Positions 19,838-24,458 of a DNA stretch of 34,672 bases are shown piece after piece; position 1 is the stretch's first letter, and the number at the start of each line of letters is the position of its first letter. The notes under the pieces are model-generated. The model was not told the DNA's origin. It saw only the letters and a list, made by a program, of their open reading frames with translations, and searched no databases. Both the position numbers and the translations under genes were made by a program. The DNA comes from a delta proteobacterium MLS_D (GTDB lineage Bacteria; Desulfobacterota; Syntrophia; Syntrophales; UBA2210), in the NCBI GenBank assembly GCA_002030015.1, contig LQBH01000015.1, positions 1 to 34,672 on the forward strand, read 5' to 3'.

Positions 19838-21538
19838 CTATTTTTCTTTCGGATAGGGCCAGGCCATGATACCACCTTCCATGACCTTCACATTTTTCCA
19901 GCCCGCTCCTTCAATCGCCAGTGCGGCCTCGTAACCACGCAGCGATATTTTGCAGAAGCATATAATTTCTTCGTTTTTATCTTCCGGGAGTTCGTTTAAC
20001 CGTTTCCGCAGGGCGCCCAGGGGAATCAGTGTTTCACCGATGCCCAGACGTGTTTCCTCGAATTCATCAGGACCTCTTGTATCGATCAGGAAGGTGCGCT
20101 CCCCTTTCAGGACCTTCTGACGGACTTCCGCGCAACTTATGCCCTTGAACCTGTTCTTCATTTTGTTCTGCATAATGTGCGCCGTGGCGATACAATGATC
20201 GATTGCCAGCGAGAAAGGAGGCGCGTAGGGAAGATCCGCGTTGACCATGTCCTCGACGCCGAGCTTGCCCTGAATTGCCATCGCCCACTGGGCGATCTGC
20301 TTGGCGACATTGCCCGGCCCGATACACTGCGCGCCCAGGACCCTTCCCGTATCGCCGTCGACTATCAGTTTTGTCACCAGGAGCAGTCCGTCCATGAATC
20401 CCGGTTTGTCGGGACTCGCGTTGACAACCGTCCTGATGTTTTTGTACCCCAGTTTTCGGGCGGTCGTTTCGGAAAGACCCGTCGAACCGGCCGCGTAATC
20501 AAAGACCTTGCAGACGCCCGTTTGAAAGACCCCCGGAAAGGTGACGTGATTGCCGGAGGCGGCGTTTTCGCCGGCCACCCGCCCCTGCAGATTGGCAATG
20601 TCGCCGTAAGGCGCCAGCACAGTTCGACCCGTAAGGCGGTTTACCGATTCCACGCAGTCACCCGCCGCATAGATGTCCGGATCCGAAGTCTGCATGTATT
20701 CGTTGACGTCGATTCCACCAAGCTCCCCGACCTTCAGACCCGAACGCCTGGCAAGTTCCACGTTCGGGCGAACGCCGATGGCTACAACCGCCAGCTCGCA
20801 GGGGAGTTCCGTACCGTTTGCCAGTTTGACCGTCGTCAGCCTGCCTTTCTCTCCCAGGAATGCCGCGACCCCGTTGTCGGTGATGACATTGGCCCCCTTG
20901 CTCTTGACATGGTTTTCCACGAGCTTGGCCAGTTCCCAGTCAAGAAACGTGAGAAGCTGCGGCAGCAGCTCGATGACCGTGATATCCATTCCCGCCAGTT
21001 GCAGCGCCTCGCACGTCTCGATGCCGATCAGCCCGCCGCCGATGACCACGGCTTTCTTTATTGCGTTTTCGTCGCGGATTTTTCGCAGGAAGTCGGCATC
21101 CTTCATGGATTGCAGCGTTGTTATTCCTTCCAGCTCAACGCCGGGCACGGGCGGCATTCGCGGGACGGCGCCCGTCGCGATGACAAGCTTGTCATAATCA
21201 AGCGTGCCCGCTTCGCCTGTCAGCGTATTTTTAAAATGCACGGTGTGATTCGCCCGATCAATTTCCGTCACTTCCGTGTTCACGCGCGCCTCGATGTCCT
21301 TAGCGTTGAGATAGAACATGGGATCCCTGGTGACGCCCGTCGGCGTGCACAGAAGCATGTTGCGGTCGTCGAAGTATCCCCCCACGTAGTAGGGATATCC
21401 ACAGGATGCCATGGAAAGATCCCCGTCCTTTTGCAATATCACGACCTCCGCGTCGTTATCGATCCTCCGGGCCTTCGCCGCCGACTTGGGCCCCGCGGCC
21501 GATCCTCCCACCACCACTATTCTTTTTTTCGCTGCCAT
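19838..21538 (-). CDS. CoA-disulfide / polysulfide reductase flavoprotein with C-terminal rhodanese domain
   Basis: The 566-residue product is a pyridine-nucleotide-disulfide oxidoreductase fused to a rhodanese domain. The FAD site is VVVGGSAAGPKSAAKARR and the NAD(P)H site is KAVVIGGGLIGIETCEAL. The single active-site cysteine of CoA-disulfide reductases is Cys46 in ASCGYPYYVGG, and DIYAAGDCVE is the second FAD contact. The C-terminal rhodanese has IDTRGPDEFEETRLG and active-site Cys529 in CFCKISLRG. Known proteins with this architecture reduce CoA-disulfides, CoA-persulfide or polysulfide with NAD(P)H, so sulfur handling or thiol redox balance is likely. ATG 21538 follows a near-perfect AAGGAGGGG. 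Confidence 0.92.
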   Translation of the reverse strand: MAAKKRIVVVGGSAAGPKSAAKARRIDNDAEVVILQKDGDLSMASCGYPYYVGGYFDDRNMLLCTPTGVTRDPMFYLNAKDIEARVNTEVTEIDRANHTVHFKNTLTGEAGTLDYDKLVIATGAVPRMPPVPGVELEGITTLQSMKDADFLRKIRDENAIKKAVVIGGGLIGIETCEALQLAGMDITVIELLPQLLTFLDWELAKLVENHVKSKGANVITDNGVAAFLGEKGRLTTVKLANGTELPCELAVVAIGVRPNVELARRSGLKVGELGGIDVNEYMQTSDPDIYAAGDCVESVNRLTGRTVLAPYGDIANLQGRVAGENAASGNHVTFPGVFQTGVCKVFDYAAGSTGLSETTARKLGYKNIRTVVNASPDKPGFMDGLLLVTKLIVDGDTGRVLGAQCIGPGNVAKQIAQWAMAIQGKLGVEDMVNADLPYAPPFSLAIDHCIATAHIMQNKMKNRFKGISCAEVRQKVLKGERTFLIDTRGPDEFEETRLGIGETLIPLGALRKRLNELPEDKNEEIICFCKISLRGYEAALAIEGAGWKNVKVMEGGIMAWPYPKEK

Positions 21539-21665: not shown

Positions 21666-21690
21666 CCTGACACTCTCCCGGTTTGTCAGG
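21666..21690 (-). terminator. Hairpin over the stop of the DUF523-DUF1722 gene
   Basis: CCTGACA (21666-21672) and TGTCAGG (21684-21690) form a perfect seven-base stem around an 11-base loop and include the stop codon at 21686-21688. No T-run follows on the minus strand, so it is at best a weak or Rho-assisted terminator, or a 3'-end stabiliser. Confidence 0.3.
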
Positions 21691-22633
21691 CATGATTGCG
21701 CAGCTGCAACTCCAGCGGGTGAGGTTCGAGATACACCTGCTCCTTCAGATAGGGTTCATCGTATTTCCGTACGTAGTGCCTCACCAGGGTCAATGGCACG
21801 ACGAGGGGCACATGACCCTGGCTGTAATTCTCGATCACCTCGAGCAGTTCCTTTTTTTCATCCCCCGATAACTGTCGCTTGAAATACCCCATCATGTGCT
21901 GAAGAACGTTGACATGTTTTTTCACCGTCGCCTTCAGTTCCAGCGCCTCCACCAGCAAAGTCTCGTAGCGCTCGTAAAGATCTCCCGCATCATACTTTTT
22001 CCCGTCGGCCACCAGCTTGCCCGATTCCCGGTAGTGTTTCGGGCTGTGCGACATGAACAGTAACTTATGGCGACTGTGAAACGCGACAAGCGCTCCTATT
22101 CCCGGGGTCGCGTTTGCCGTCTCGCGCCAGCGCTGAAGCGCGAATATTCTCTCAATAAAATTTTCTCTCAGCCCAACGTCGTGAAGGCGGCCTTCCTCCT
22201 CCACCGGCAGCCGGGGGAACCGTTTCATGAACATGCCCGCGAATAGTCCCGTACCGTTTTTCCCGGGGACGCCCTTTTCGTTATACACCCTGACCCGTTC
22301 CATGCCGCTGGACGGCGAACCGCTCTTAAAAATAAACCCCAGCAGCCGTTCCCCCGCGAGTTCATCCAGCCGCTTACGGGCCCATCGCACCATTATGTCC
22401 GTCTTGTCTTCTTTTGTGCGGACAGTCACCAGACGGGGACGCGCCGGATCGCCTTCCAGTCTCATTGATTCACGGGGAACGCCCATGCCGCATTCCACCT
22501 CCGGACAAACGGAAACATACTCGACGTATTTTCCCAGCGTGTCGCGAAGAAACCTGTCAAGCTTATGCCCCCCGTCATAACGAACCGCCTCACCCAGGAG
22601 GCACGAGCTGATGCCTAAACGGATTTTATCCAT
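21686..22633 (-). CDS. DUF523 (TudS-like) and DUF1722 (YbgA-like) two-domain protein
   Basis: The N-terminal half is a DUF523 domain: ISSCLLGEAVRYDGGHK, VCPEVECGMGVPRES and IFKSGSPSSGMERVRVYN. DUF523 includes the TudS thiouracil desulfidases, whose 4Fe-4S cluster is held by three cysteines, one of them normally in an SPSCG-type motif. The C-terminal half is DUF1722/YbgA: LVAFHSRHKLLFMSHSPKHYRE and VNVLQHMMGYFKRQLSGDEK. Here the SPSCG position is Ser109, but an extra Cys48 occurs in VECGMG, so the possible ligands are Cys11, Cys43 and Cys48. ATG 22633 is preferred over 22663 because it follows GGGGGA and begins MDKIRLGISSC. The fusion is known in bacteria; its function is not established. Confidence 0.85.
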   Translation of the reverse strand: MDKIRLGISSCLLGEAVRYDGGHKLDRFLRDTLGKYVEYVSVCPEVECGMGVPRESMRLEGDPARPRLVTVRTKEDKTDIMVRWARKRLDELAGERLLGFIFKSGSPSSGMERVRVYNEKGVPGKNGTGLFAGMFMKRFPRLPVEEEGRLHDVGLRENFIERIFALQRWRETANATPGIGALVAFHSRHKLLFMSHSPKHYRESGKLVADGKKYDAGDLYERYETLLVEALELKATVKKHVNVLQHMMGYFKRQLSGDEKKELLEVIENYSQGHVPLVVPLTLVRHYVRKYDEPYLKEQVYLEPHPLELQLRNHA

Positions 22634-22653
22634 AGTTCCCCCGATTTTCGATA

Positions 22654-22682
22654 AATGTATCAACGGGCACGGTCGAAGTCAA
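22654..22682 (-). promoter_or_regulatory. Sigma-70 promoter for the DUF523-DUF1722 gene
   Basis: On the minus strand TTGACT (22682-22677), an exact 17-base spacer and TACATT (22659-22654). Transcription would start near 22647, about 14 bases before the ATG at 22633. Confidence 0.6.
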
Positions 22683-22883
22683 TCAGGCAAAATATGATAA
22701 CTATTTAAAAATTCGCCCCGTTTTGCGATGACTTTTCCATGACAGCTTCACGGCATCAGGAGCGAATAATCAGCTTCCGCGCAGGCGGGCAAATCCGCCG
22801 CGACATATCCGGAATGCTTTTTTCCGGCGCGCAATAATGGTATAGAAGATAACAGCACGTGAAAAGAACGAAGGAGAACGCCA

Positions 22884-24047
22884 ATGACCCTGAAAGACAA
22901 GTACGCCATTGTCGGCATCGGTTACACACCACAGGGAACCGTCAGCGACCGGACGACCCTTGATTTTCACCTGGAAGCCTGCGCTGACGCCATCGCCGAC
23001 GCCGGCCTGAAGCGTGAAGACATCGATGGTCTCGTCTGCTACCGGCATTTTCCGCCCGCCCCCGGAGAAGGGGACGTCACGCCCTATCTCGTCGCGCAAC
23101 ACCTGGGTCTTGAACCCGCGTACCTTGCCCAGGACGCCAACTGATCGCGCAACCACCTGGTGCACGCAGTTGGCGCGCTCGAAGCCGGTATCTGTAAGTA
23201 TATTCTCATATCGTACGGTCACAGCGCCCGCAGTGGCGGCGGCATGAGCCAGGTTCTTTCCCGCATGGCCGGCGACGACGCCGTTTTCGGTCATTTCGGC
23301 GCCGCGGCCGGATACGCGCTCGCCGCGCGGCGCGCCATGCACGAATACAACACCGGTCCTGACACCTGGAAGCATATCGCCGTGGGACAGCGCAAATGGG
23401 CGAATCTGAATCCACGTGCCGTCATGTACGACCGTCCCATGACGGAATCTGATTATGAACGCTCGCCCTGGATCGTCGAACCGTTCCGCCTGGCCGACAA
23501 CTGCCTCGTGACCGATGGCGGCCGGGCCTTTATCCTCACGACGGCCGAACGGGCACGGGATCTTCCCCACCCTGTCGTCACCATCATGGGACTGGGCATG
23601 CACAATCCGGCGGCCGACCCGGTCGCGGCCCGTCATCTTACCGGTCCCACGGGAGCACGGAGGGCGGGGGAACAGGCCTTCCACATGGCCGGCATAACCC
23701 TCGAAGACGTTGACGCCTGCGAAATCTACGATTGTTTTACCTATACCGTTGAGATCACGCTTCAGGATTACGGCTTTTTCGGCCCCGGCGAGGGCGAAGA
23801 GTGGTTCCGGGGAGGAACAATCGAACCCGGCGGCCGCACGCCGGTCAATACTTCCGGCGGATTACTGTCGGAGGCCTACCAGATGGGACTTACCCCCCTT
23901 ACGGAAGGGGTGATGCAGCTCATGGGCCGTTGCGGCGATCACCAGCTCGGCCCCGCGACCGGGAACATCAAACCGGAAATCATTTTGTGCAGCGACAACG
24001 GGGGAATCCTGCAGACCCACGCCTGCTGCATACTGAGGAGGAACTGA
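22884..24047 (+). CDS. Thiolase-like acyltransferase interrupted by one in-frame TGA (selenocysteine candidate or nonsense codon)
   Basis: ATG 22884 follows a strong AAGGAG and opens MTLKDKYAIVGIGYTPQG, a thiolase/SCP-x-type start. The frame meets a single TGA at 23142-23144 (codon 87) and then continues without frameshift for 300 codons: HLVHAVGALEAGICKYILIS, EIYDCFTYTVEITLQDYG, and NTSGGLLSEAYQMG in the C-terminal thiolase region. The total of 387 residues is normal for the family, and catalytic cysteines of thiolases lie at about residue 88-94. A hairpin begins two bases after the TGA. The partner zinc-ribbon/OB gene follows in the same frame. Such pairs act on acyl-CoA or sterol-side-chain-like intermediates. 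Either TGA encodes selenocysteine or the gene is damaged, in which case translation could restart at GTG 23160 only without the N-terminal substrate domain. Confidence 0.7.
23146..23177 (+). other. Stem-loop directly after the in-frame TGA (possible SECIS-like element)
   Basis: CGCGCAAC (23146-23153) pairs with GTTG and CGCG (23169-23172 and 23174-23177), with G23173 bulged, closing a 15-base loop that can itself form CAC/GTG. It starts two bases after the TGA. Bacterial SECIS elements are hairpins just downstream of UGA, often with a bulge and G/U in the apical loop. The loop here is larger than the textbook case, so this is only suggestive. Confidence 0.3.
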
Positions 24048-24050
24048 CGC

Positions 24051-24458
24051 GTGACGTACAGTAAACCCCTGCCGGTCCCCGGCGCAGACACGAAACCATT
24101 CTGGGATGGATGCCGGGAACACACGATCAGGATTCAACGGTGCAAAGCCTGCGGCCACCTGCGCCGGCCGCCCGCTTCGGTCTGCCCCCGGTGCCTGGCG
24201 CGCGAAACGGAATGGGTCGAAATGTCGGGACGGGGAACGGTATATTCCTACGTGGTGTATCACGTGGCCTATGACCCTTCCTTCAAAGAGGATCTTCCTT
24301 ACGTGGTTGCCCTGGTCACCCTGGAAGAAGGCCCCCGCATCCTGACGAATATCGTTGAATGCGATCCGGCGGCGGTTCATTGTGACATGGCCGTCGAGGC
24401 GATCTGGAAGGACGTGACGGATACCGTCTCGCTTCCCCTGTTCCGCCCGGCGAGCTGA
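24051..24458 (+). CDS. Zn-ribbon / OB-fold (DUF35-type) thiolase partner
   Basis: The 135-residue product has a rubredoxin-like zinc ribbon with Cys31, Cys34, Cys45 and Cys48 (CKACGHLRRPPASVCPRC), then an OB-fold (GRGTVYSYVVYHVAYDPSF, LPYVVALVTLEEGPRILTNIV). Proteins of this COG1545/DUF35 family almost always sit beside a thiolase-like gene and form a complex with it, helping bind CoA or activate the condensing/cleaving subunit. That matches the gene directly upstream. The start is GTG 24051, three bases after the thiolase stop, with GAGGA in the thiolase 3' end as ribosome site. A CCGGCG-CGCCGG hairpin (24447-24464) spans the stop codon and may mark the operon end. Confidence 0.9.
   Translation: MTYSKPLPVPGADTKPFWDGCREHTIRIQRCKACGHLRRPPASVCPRCLARETEWVEMSGRGTVYSYVVYHVAYDPSFKEDLPYVVALVTLEEGPRILTNIVECDPAAVHCDMAVEAIWKDVTDTVSLPLFRPAS

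Follow-up and report, generated by a model that had tools for sequence, protein, structure and literature searches.

The window analysed here, a stretch of 34,672 nucleotides from the Syntrophales bacterium MLS_D, holds a thiolase-like gene on the forward strand (22884-24047) that is interrupted by an in-frame TGA. The question raised by this locus is whether that codon marks a broken gene or is read as selenocysteine (Sec) and, if the latter, what selenium might do at such a position. The frame opens with an ATG 7 nt behind the ribosome-binding site AAGGAG (22871-22876, forward strand) and closes with its own TGA stop at 24045-24047, the only internal stop being TGA codon 87 at 23142-23144. 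The in-frame TGA is real, and the initial sequence-only reading, which had described an intact frame with a strong ribosome site and a single TGA, is confirmed in this respect. Read through with Sec87, the product has 387 residues and matches Thiolase_C_1 (PF22691), while NCBIfam thiolase and lipid-transfer models match it below their cut-off (best PRK06158, 258 bits vs. a cut-off of 421).

Directly downstream lies a partner gene (24051-24458, forward strand) which, as had also been claimed, is intact. It encodes a rubredoxin-like zinc ribbon and OB fold of the DUF35, ChsH2 type (zf-ChsH2 and OB_ChsH2_C domains; PF12172, PF01796), its best PDB match is the ChsH2 DUF35 subunit of 6OK1, and its ribosome-binding site AGGAGG (24036-24041, forward strand) is placed within the end of the thiolase frame. 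Two genes upstream on the reverse strand, encoding a DUF523/DUF1722 protein (21686-22663) and a CoA-disulfide reductase with a rhodanese domain (19838-21538), are Cys forms (SSCLLG and SCGYP, respectively). Both the DUF523/DUF1722 and the CoA-disulfide reductase/rhodanese families are counted among selenoprotein families (PMC13188914).

The codon column in relatives

Relatives were gathered from two sources, the GTDB contig collection and whole genomes belonging to the order and the phylum (a class-level genome search covered the same 155 genomes as the order-level search), and the codon at the position of TGA87 was read in each distinct sequence context, counted once. The column holds TGA in 43 contexts and Cys (TGT/TGC) in 33, with no third residue in any orthologue. 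The Gly, Ser or Trp residues that would have refuted a Sec reading did not occur, and the check that had been proposed for it, a column of Cys or TGA in homologues, was met without exception. TGA forms extend down to about 66% identity to the window and Cys forms down to about 59%, with one further Cys form at 50%. No TAA or TAG was found inside the frame of any orthologue, internal stops in the search tables always being TGA, and one truncated fragment (L155) carries a second TGA at its degraded end. The TGA forms come from many genera, and the family as a whole is also present in Desulfobacterales, Chloroflexota and Desulfurella.

The same-column TGA is shared by a 99% identical copy from another assembly, by relatives at 66-80% identity and by a single-contig genome (G451), and the first and last of these exclude a base error for the family. 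Two genomes (G015 and G032) have two TGA-containing copies each. Third codon positions have accumulated 0.60 substitutions per codon before the TGA and 0.56 after it, compared with 0.14-0.16 for second positions. Together with a dN/dS of 0.06-0.14 on either side, this shows selection on one continuous protein spanning the TGA.

In a maximum-likelihood tree the TGA forms fall within a clade nested among Cys forms, with a minimum of four TGA/Cys changes, a number that is forced by well-supported branches. The natural reading of this tree is that a Cys ancestor acquired Sec a single time and that about three lineages later went back to Cys. In a sister clade with 52-57% identity (L109, L112, L114, L115, L116 and L122; Chloroflexota and others) the motif is GASAGC or similar, in which the Cys lies three residues nearer the helix than Sec87, and here the register of the putative nucleophile seems to be shifted within one fold family.

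Hairpin, codon constraint and decoding

A SECIS-like hairpin, GCACGC-AGTTG-GCGCGC, lies at 23162-23178 on the forward strand, with the stem formed by 23162-23167 and 23173-23178 and the loop by 23168-23172. Its consensus in TGA forms is GCACGC-nGUnG-GCGYGC, 17-33 nt after the TGA. Five of the six stem pairs and the loop nGUnG are present in all 43 TGA contexts and occur together in none of the 33 Cys contexts. The remaining pair, the third of the stem, is A-T in 25/43 and unpaired in 18/43, window included, the window having an A-C mismatch as in 16/43. Variants include a compensated A-T for G-C in one sequence and a T-G wobble in two. The loop sits 23 nt after the UGA, and both this distance and the loop agree with the bacterial SECIS model, with a G early in the loop. 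No SECIS match above cut-off was found in Rfam. The expectation of a hairpin at SECIS distance was borne out, but by a smaller element than the one originally drawn: the eight-pair bulged stem placed just after the TGA belongs only to the window's own minimum-energy fold and is absent from relatives.

The isolated minimum-energy fold of the window's own copy still favours this competing stem, and fold-energy z-scores against synonymous shuffles are weak (mean -0.87 for TGA forms, -0.05 for Cys forms). The argument for the hairpin therefore rests on pair conservation and codon constraint and not on stability. When same-amino-acid codons were compared between sequences less than 86% identical, the peak of synonymous constraint in the gene fell on codons 93-98 in TGA forms, with an excess of 0.41 (mean of codon windows 0, sd 0.066), or about 6 sd, and no constraint was seen at these codons in Cys forms. 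Residue 96 is Val in 43/43 TGA forms, where it is forced by the loop GUn, whereas in Cys forms it is Ile (15), Leu (10), Val (7) or Met (1). Codons 381-386 form a second peak that both TGA and Cys forms show, and this one is explained by the ribosome-binding site of the partner gene embedded there. All three lineages that reverted to Cys are without the hairpin, as predicted by selection for Sec insertion and its release.

The source genome has the genes required of it by the Sec reading, namely SelA (579.9 bits), SelB (346.7 bits), SelD (380.4 bits) and tRNA-SeC with anticodon TCA. SelB was found in 31 of 32 tested genomes with TGA forms, and the exception (G152) has a SelB-positive congener. 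Genomes with Cys forms may be SelB-positive, but in 12 of them, including the complete Desulfurella acetivorans genome, SelB had no match. The SelD gene of the source genome (L133; C22:12556-13485) itself contains an in-frame TGA (THGAG-U-ACK) with its own small hairpin after it. Most genomes have a single tRNA-SeC gene. Two are present here (L031 and L032; G000:C24:4613-4706 and C53:7693-7785; 76 and 66 bits), one of which could be due to contamination (3%) or be a real duplicate.

An in-frame stop in a single metagenome-assembled genome is most often a nonsense mutation or a sequencing error, and a second frame might begin at the GTG at 23160, in which case the TGA would be the boundary of two separately translated pieces. 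These explanations are very hard to reconcile with the same TGA recurring in 43 contexts from many genera, where Cys is the sole alternative and TAA and TAG never appear, nor with a hairpin confined to TGA forms and low dN/dS on both sides of the codon, and we consider them highly improbable. A general change of the genetic code, in which UGA would stand for Trp or Cys, has even less to recommend it: a TGA at a Cys column is by itself compatible with UGA = Cys, but the thiolase-like gene and other genes of the window terminate with TGA, and the presence of tRNA-SeC (anticodon TCA), SelA, SelB and SelD, together with a conserved hairpin after the codon, is not what such a change would predict. 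Nonsense mutation, base error and code change are thus rejected on the conserved column, the hairpin and the codon constraint. From this comparative evidence, which includes no protein or selenium data, the TGA at 23142-23144 is almost certainly a selenocysteine codon. That UGA87 would be decoded by SelB and tRNA-Sec, aided by the hairpin 17-33 nt downstream, is supported by comparison and not measured, and we hold it with very little doubt. The original suggestion that the codon may be read as Sec is supported by the column, the hairpin and the sel genes, with chemical proof of Sec still lacking. All of the proposed computational checks that were run favour it, and no outcome named as refuting it was encountered.

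Fold, active site and putative chemistry

The AlphaFold2 model of the thiolase-like subunit (mean pLDDT 90.8) has as its nearest solved structures 4U4E (Z 48.5), the Ltp2-ChsH2 complex 6OK1 (48.4), Sal-Shy 9MYR (47.4) and the archaeal thiolase 6ESQ (46.5, with a TM score of 0.86), so that a thiolase fold is present in the model. When the family profile is aligned with PDB sequences, the family shares with 6ESQ and 7YVY an EAxC motif whose Cys (Cys85 and Cys83, respectively) coincides with Cys/Sec87, and the TGA, which had been estimated to lie within about two residues of the catalytic Cys, is placed exactly on the nucleophile. SCP2-type and archaeal thiolases carry their nucleophilic Cys where the third helix starts, and by this alignment Cys/Sec87 satisfies that criterion. 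PhlC Cys88, which has been seen acetylated, has been equated with Cys85 of the archaeal thiolase (PMC6392133). Cys or Sec occupies residue 87 in 61/61 sequences. The exact active-site position of Sec87 nonetheless depends on a profile alignment and a predicted model, with no measured distances, and its geometry is uncertain because of a two-residue gap after Sec87 relative to archaeal thiolases and the three-residue shift of the sister-clade Cys.

Both catalytic His of thiolases (HDxF and GHP) are replaced by Tyr in 61/61 sequences, and the criterion of a GHP histidine is therefore not met. Y282-D283-C284 of the YDCF motif (23727-23735, forward strand) is invariant (61/61), its Tyr corresponding to Tyr294 of Ltp2 and Tyr302 of CtSal and its Cys to Cys304 of CtSal. 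Tyr332 (23877-23879, forward strand), equally invariant (61/61), stands in place of the GHP histidine and aligns with the catalytic Tyr344 of Ltp2. Catalytic roles are described for the Tyr294 and Tyr344 pair of Ltp2 and for Tyr302 and Cys304 of CtSal (PMC12329534). Cys104, Cys279, Cys284 and Cys350 are almost invariant. The family thus brings together the Tyr pair typical of the aldolases and a nucleophile of the thiolase kind, which is Sec in one clade. "Thiolase" is here the name of a fold, as both catalytic His are Tyr and activity is inferred without an assay, and thiolysis may not be the reaction, since the residues that replace the GHP and HDCF His are the pair used by the aldolase Ltp2.

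Each known system shares some of these features. The steroid side-chain aldolase Ltp2-ChsH2 (6OK1) has the thiolase fold, the DUF35 partner and the catalytic Tyr pair kept here as Tyr282/Tyr332, but it is only about 34% identical, has YDHF where this family has YDCF, and differs in that a Cys/Sec is found here at the nucleophile position and no recurrent steroid genes are found nearby. The bile-acid aldolase Sal-Shy (9MYR) likewise has the fold, a DUF35 partner and a YDC motif with catalytic Tyr and Cys, but Gly in place of Sec/Cys and Gln in place of Tyr332. The acetoacetyl-CoA thiolase of the archaeal thiolase/HMG-CoA synthase complex (6ESQ) and the P. furiosus thiolase (7YVY) share the fold and the EAxC motif with an aligned nucleophile, and 6ESQ also has a DUF35 subunit. 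At 24-28% identity, however, they have His at HDxF/GHP and two more residues after the nucleophile, which is Cys and not Sec. PhlC of the Friedel-Crafts acyltransferase PhlABC (5M3K) is a thiolase-like subunit with a DUF35-like partner, an acyl-Cys88 intermediate and Tyr298 lining the site, but it is about 19% identical, needs PhlA, retains His347 and uses Cys instead of Sec.

We propose, with a probability of roughly 0.6 that also covers the mechanism set out below, and in the absence of protein or selenium data, that the selenoprotein is the large one of the two subunits of a thiolase-like enzyme, with Sec as its nucleophile. The thiolase-fold subunit would work with its zinc-ribbon/OB-fold (DUF35) partner, which, as inferred from solved relatives, may help to form the CoA pocket. 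Sec87, at the nucleophile position before helix 91-100, would be ionised owing to its low pKa, although the activating His is replaced by Tyr332, and could then react with an acyl-CoA or 3-ketoacyl-CoA at the carbonyl to give an acyl-selenoester. Tyr282, Cys284 and Tyr332 are inferred to serve as acid/base for the carbanion side; the acyl group would presumably be handed to CoA or a carbon acceptor. Since a selenol needs no activating His, the absence of the GHP His would be in keeping with this scheme, but it is no proof because the Cys forms are also without that His. Within anaerobic acyl-CoA metabolism, the reaction is likely to be the making or breaking of a C-C bond, or acyl transfer, with the substrate unassigned. 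The narrower claim that Sec carries the acyl group as nucleophile in carbon-carbon bond chemistry, making this an acyl-selenoester enzyme on a thiolase fold with a non-redox use of selenium, is one to which we give somewhat better than even odds.

The enzyme could instead be a retro-aldolase similar to Ltp2 and Sal that acts on a 3-hydroxyacyl-CoA, with Tyr282 as base, Tyr332/Cys284 as acid and Sec87 carrying no acyl group but serving only as an acid, as oxyanion support or as a metal or redox ligand. In favour of this, the two catalytic Tyr of Ltp2 have their counterparts in Tyr282 and Tyr332, the catalytic Cys of CtSal has one in Cys284 (PMC12329534), and the best fold matches are these very aldolases and their DUF35 partners. 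Sal, however, has Gly at the nucleophile position where Cys/Sec is invariant here (61/61), it would be odd for a residue that is not a nucleophile to be kept and upgraded to Sec, and steroid side-chain genes are not recurrent beside the gene, all of which make the aldolase unlikely, if worth keeping in mind. More doubtful again is a redox selenoprotein, a switch or reductase in which Sec87 would form a selenosulfide with CoA or with one of the conserved Cys residues (104, 279, 284, 350). Uncharacterised selenoproteins are mostly thought to be redox proteins (PMC13188914), these four Cys are almost invariant, and both the window and one further locus (L113) have a CoA-disulfide reductase gene close by. 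That gene is not a recurrent neighbour, however, no thioredoxin-like or CxxC/CxxU motif surrounds Sec87, and the fold and partner are typical of acyl-CoA carbon-carbon enzymes. A redox role for Sec87 is not excluded.

Novelty and gene neighbourhood

What selenium adds to acyl transfer has so far been approached mainly with artificial selenoenzymes. A thiolase fold with naturally occurring Sec and Cys versions of its nucleophile position, Cys revertants among them, permits a direct test of this contribution. Additionally, standard annotation is likely to split or truncate the gene in Syntrophales, Smithella and other Desulfobacterota relatives, which would hide part of their anaerobic acyl-CoA metabolism. 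The locus resembles known prokaryotic selenoprotein families in its UGA/Sec with Cys homologues, its SECIS hairpin and its SelB genomes, but those families are mostly redox proteins, and a 2026 review inventory of 119 prokaryotic families and subfamilies, most of whose uncharacterised members are considered likely redox proteins, lists no thiolase, acyltransferase or aldolase (PMC13188914). The prediction of a new selenoprotein family agrees with this inventory. A selenium-containing thiolase was not found in other selenoprotein reviews, the deep-Sep paper or the full-text literature either, and as most subscription journals and preprints were outside the search a prior description is not fully excluded. 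Overall, this is a new selenoprotein family, in which the use of Sec is probably non-redox.

The DUF35 partner is the only recurrent neighbour (49/60 loci); no other gene recurs across the 60 loci, and the neighbourhood points to no pathway and to no recurrent steroid side-chain context. A role in the Smithella propionate pathway was set aside, given the presence of the family in Desulfobacterales, Chloroflexota and Desulfurella. CoA ligases, present close to some of the copies, are suggestive and not common to the loci. The Cys form at 50% identity, from a gut Lachnospiraceae genome (Mediterraneibacter pullicola; L113:2538-11787), is found in a gene cluster whose other products include an acylating aldehyde dehydrogenase close to SauS, a CoA-disulfide reductase, a LarA lactate racemase and a galactarate/altronate dehydratase; this arrangement, suggestive but not shared, is a possible lead to the substrate.
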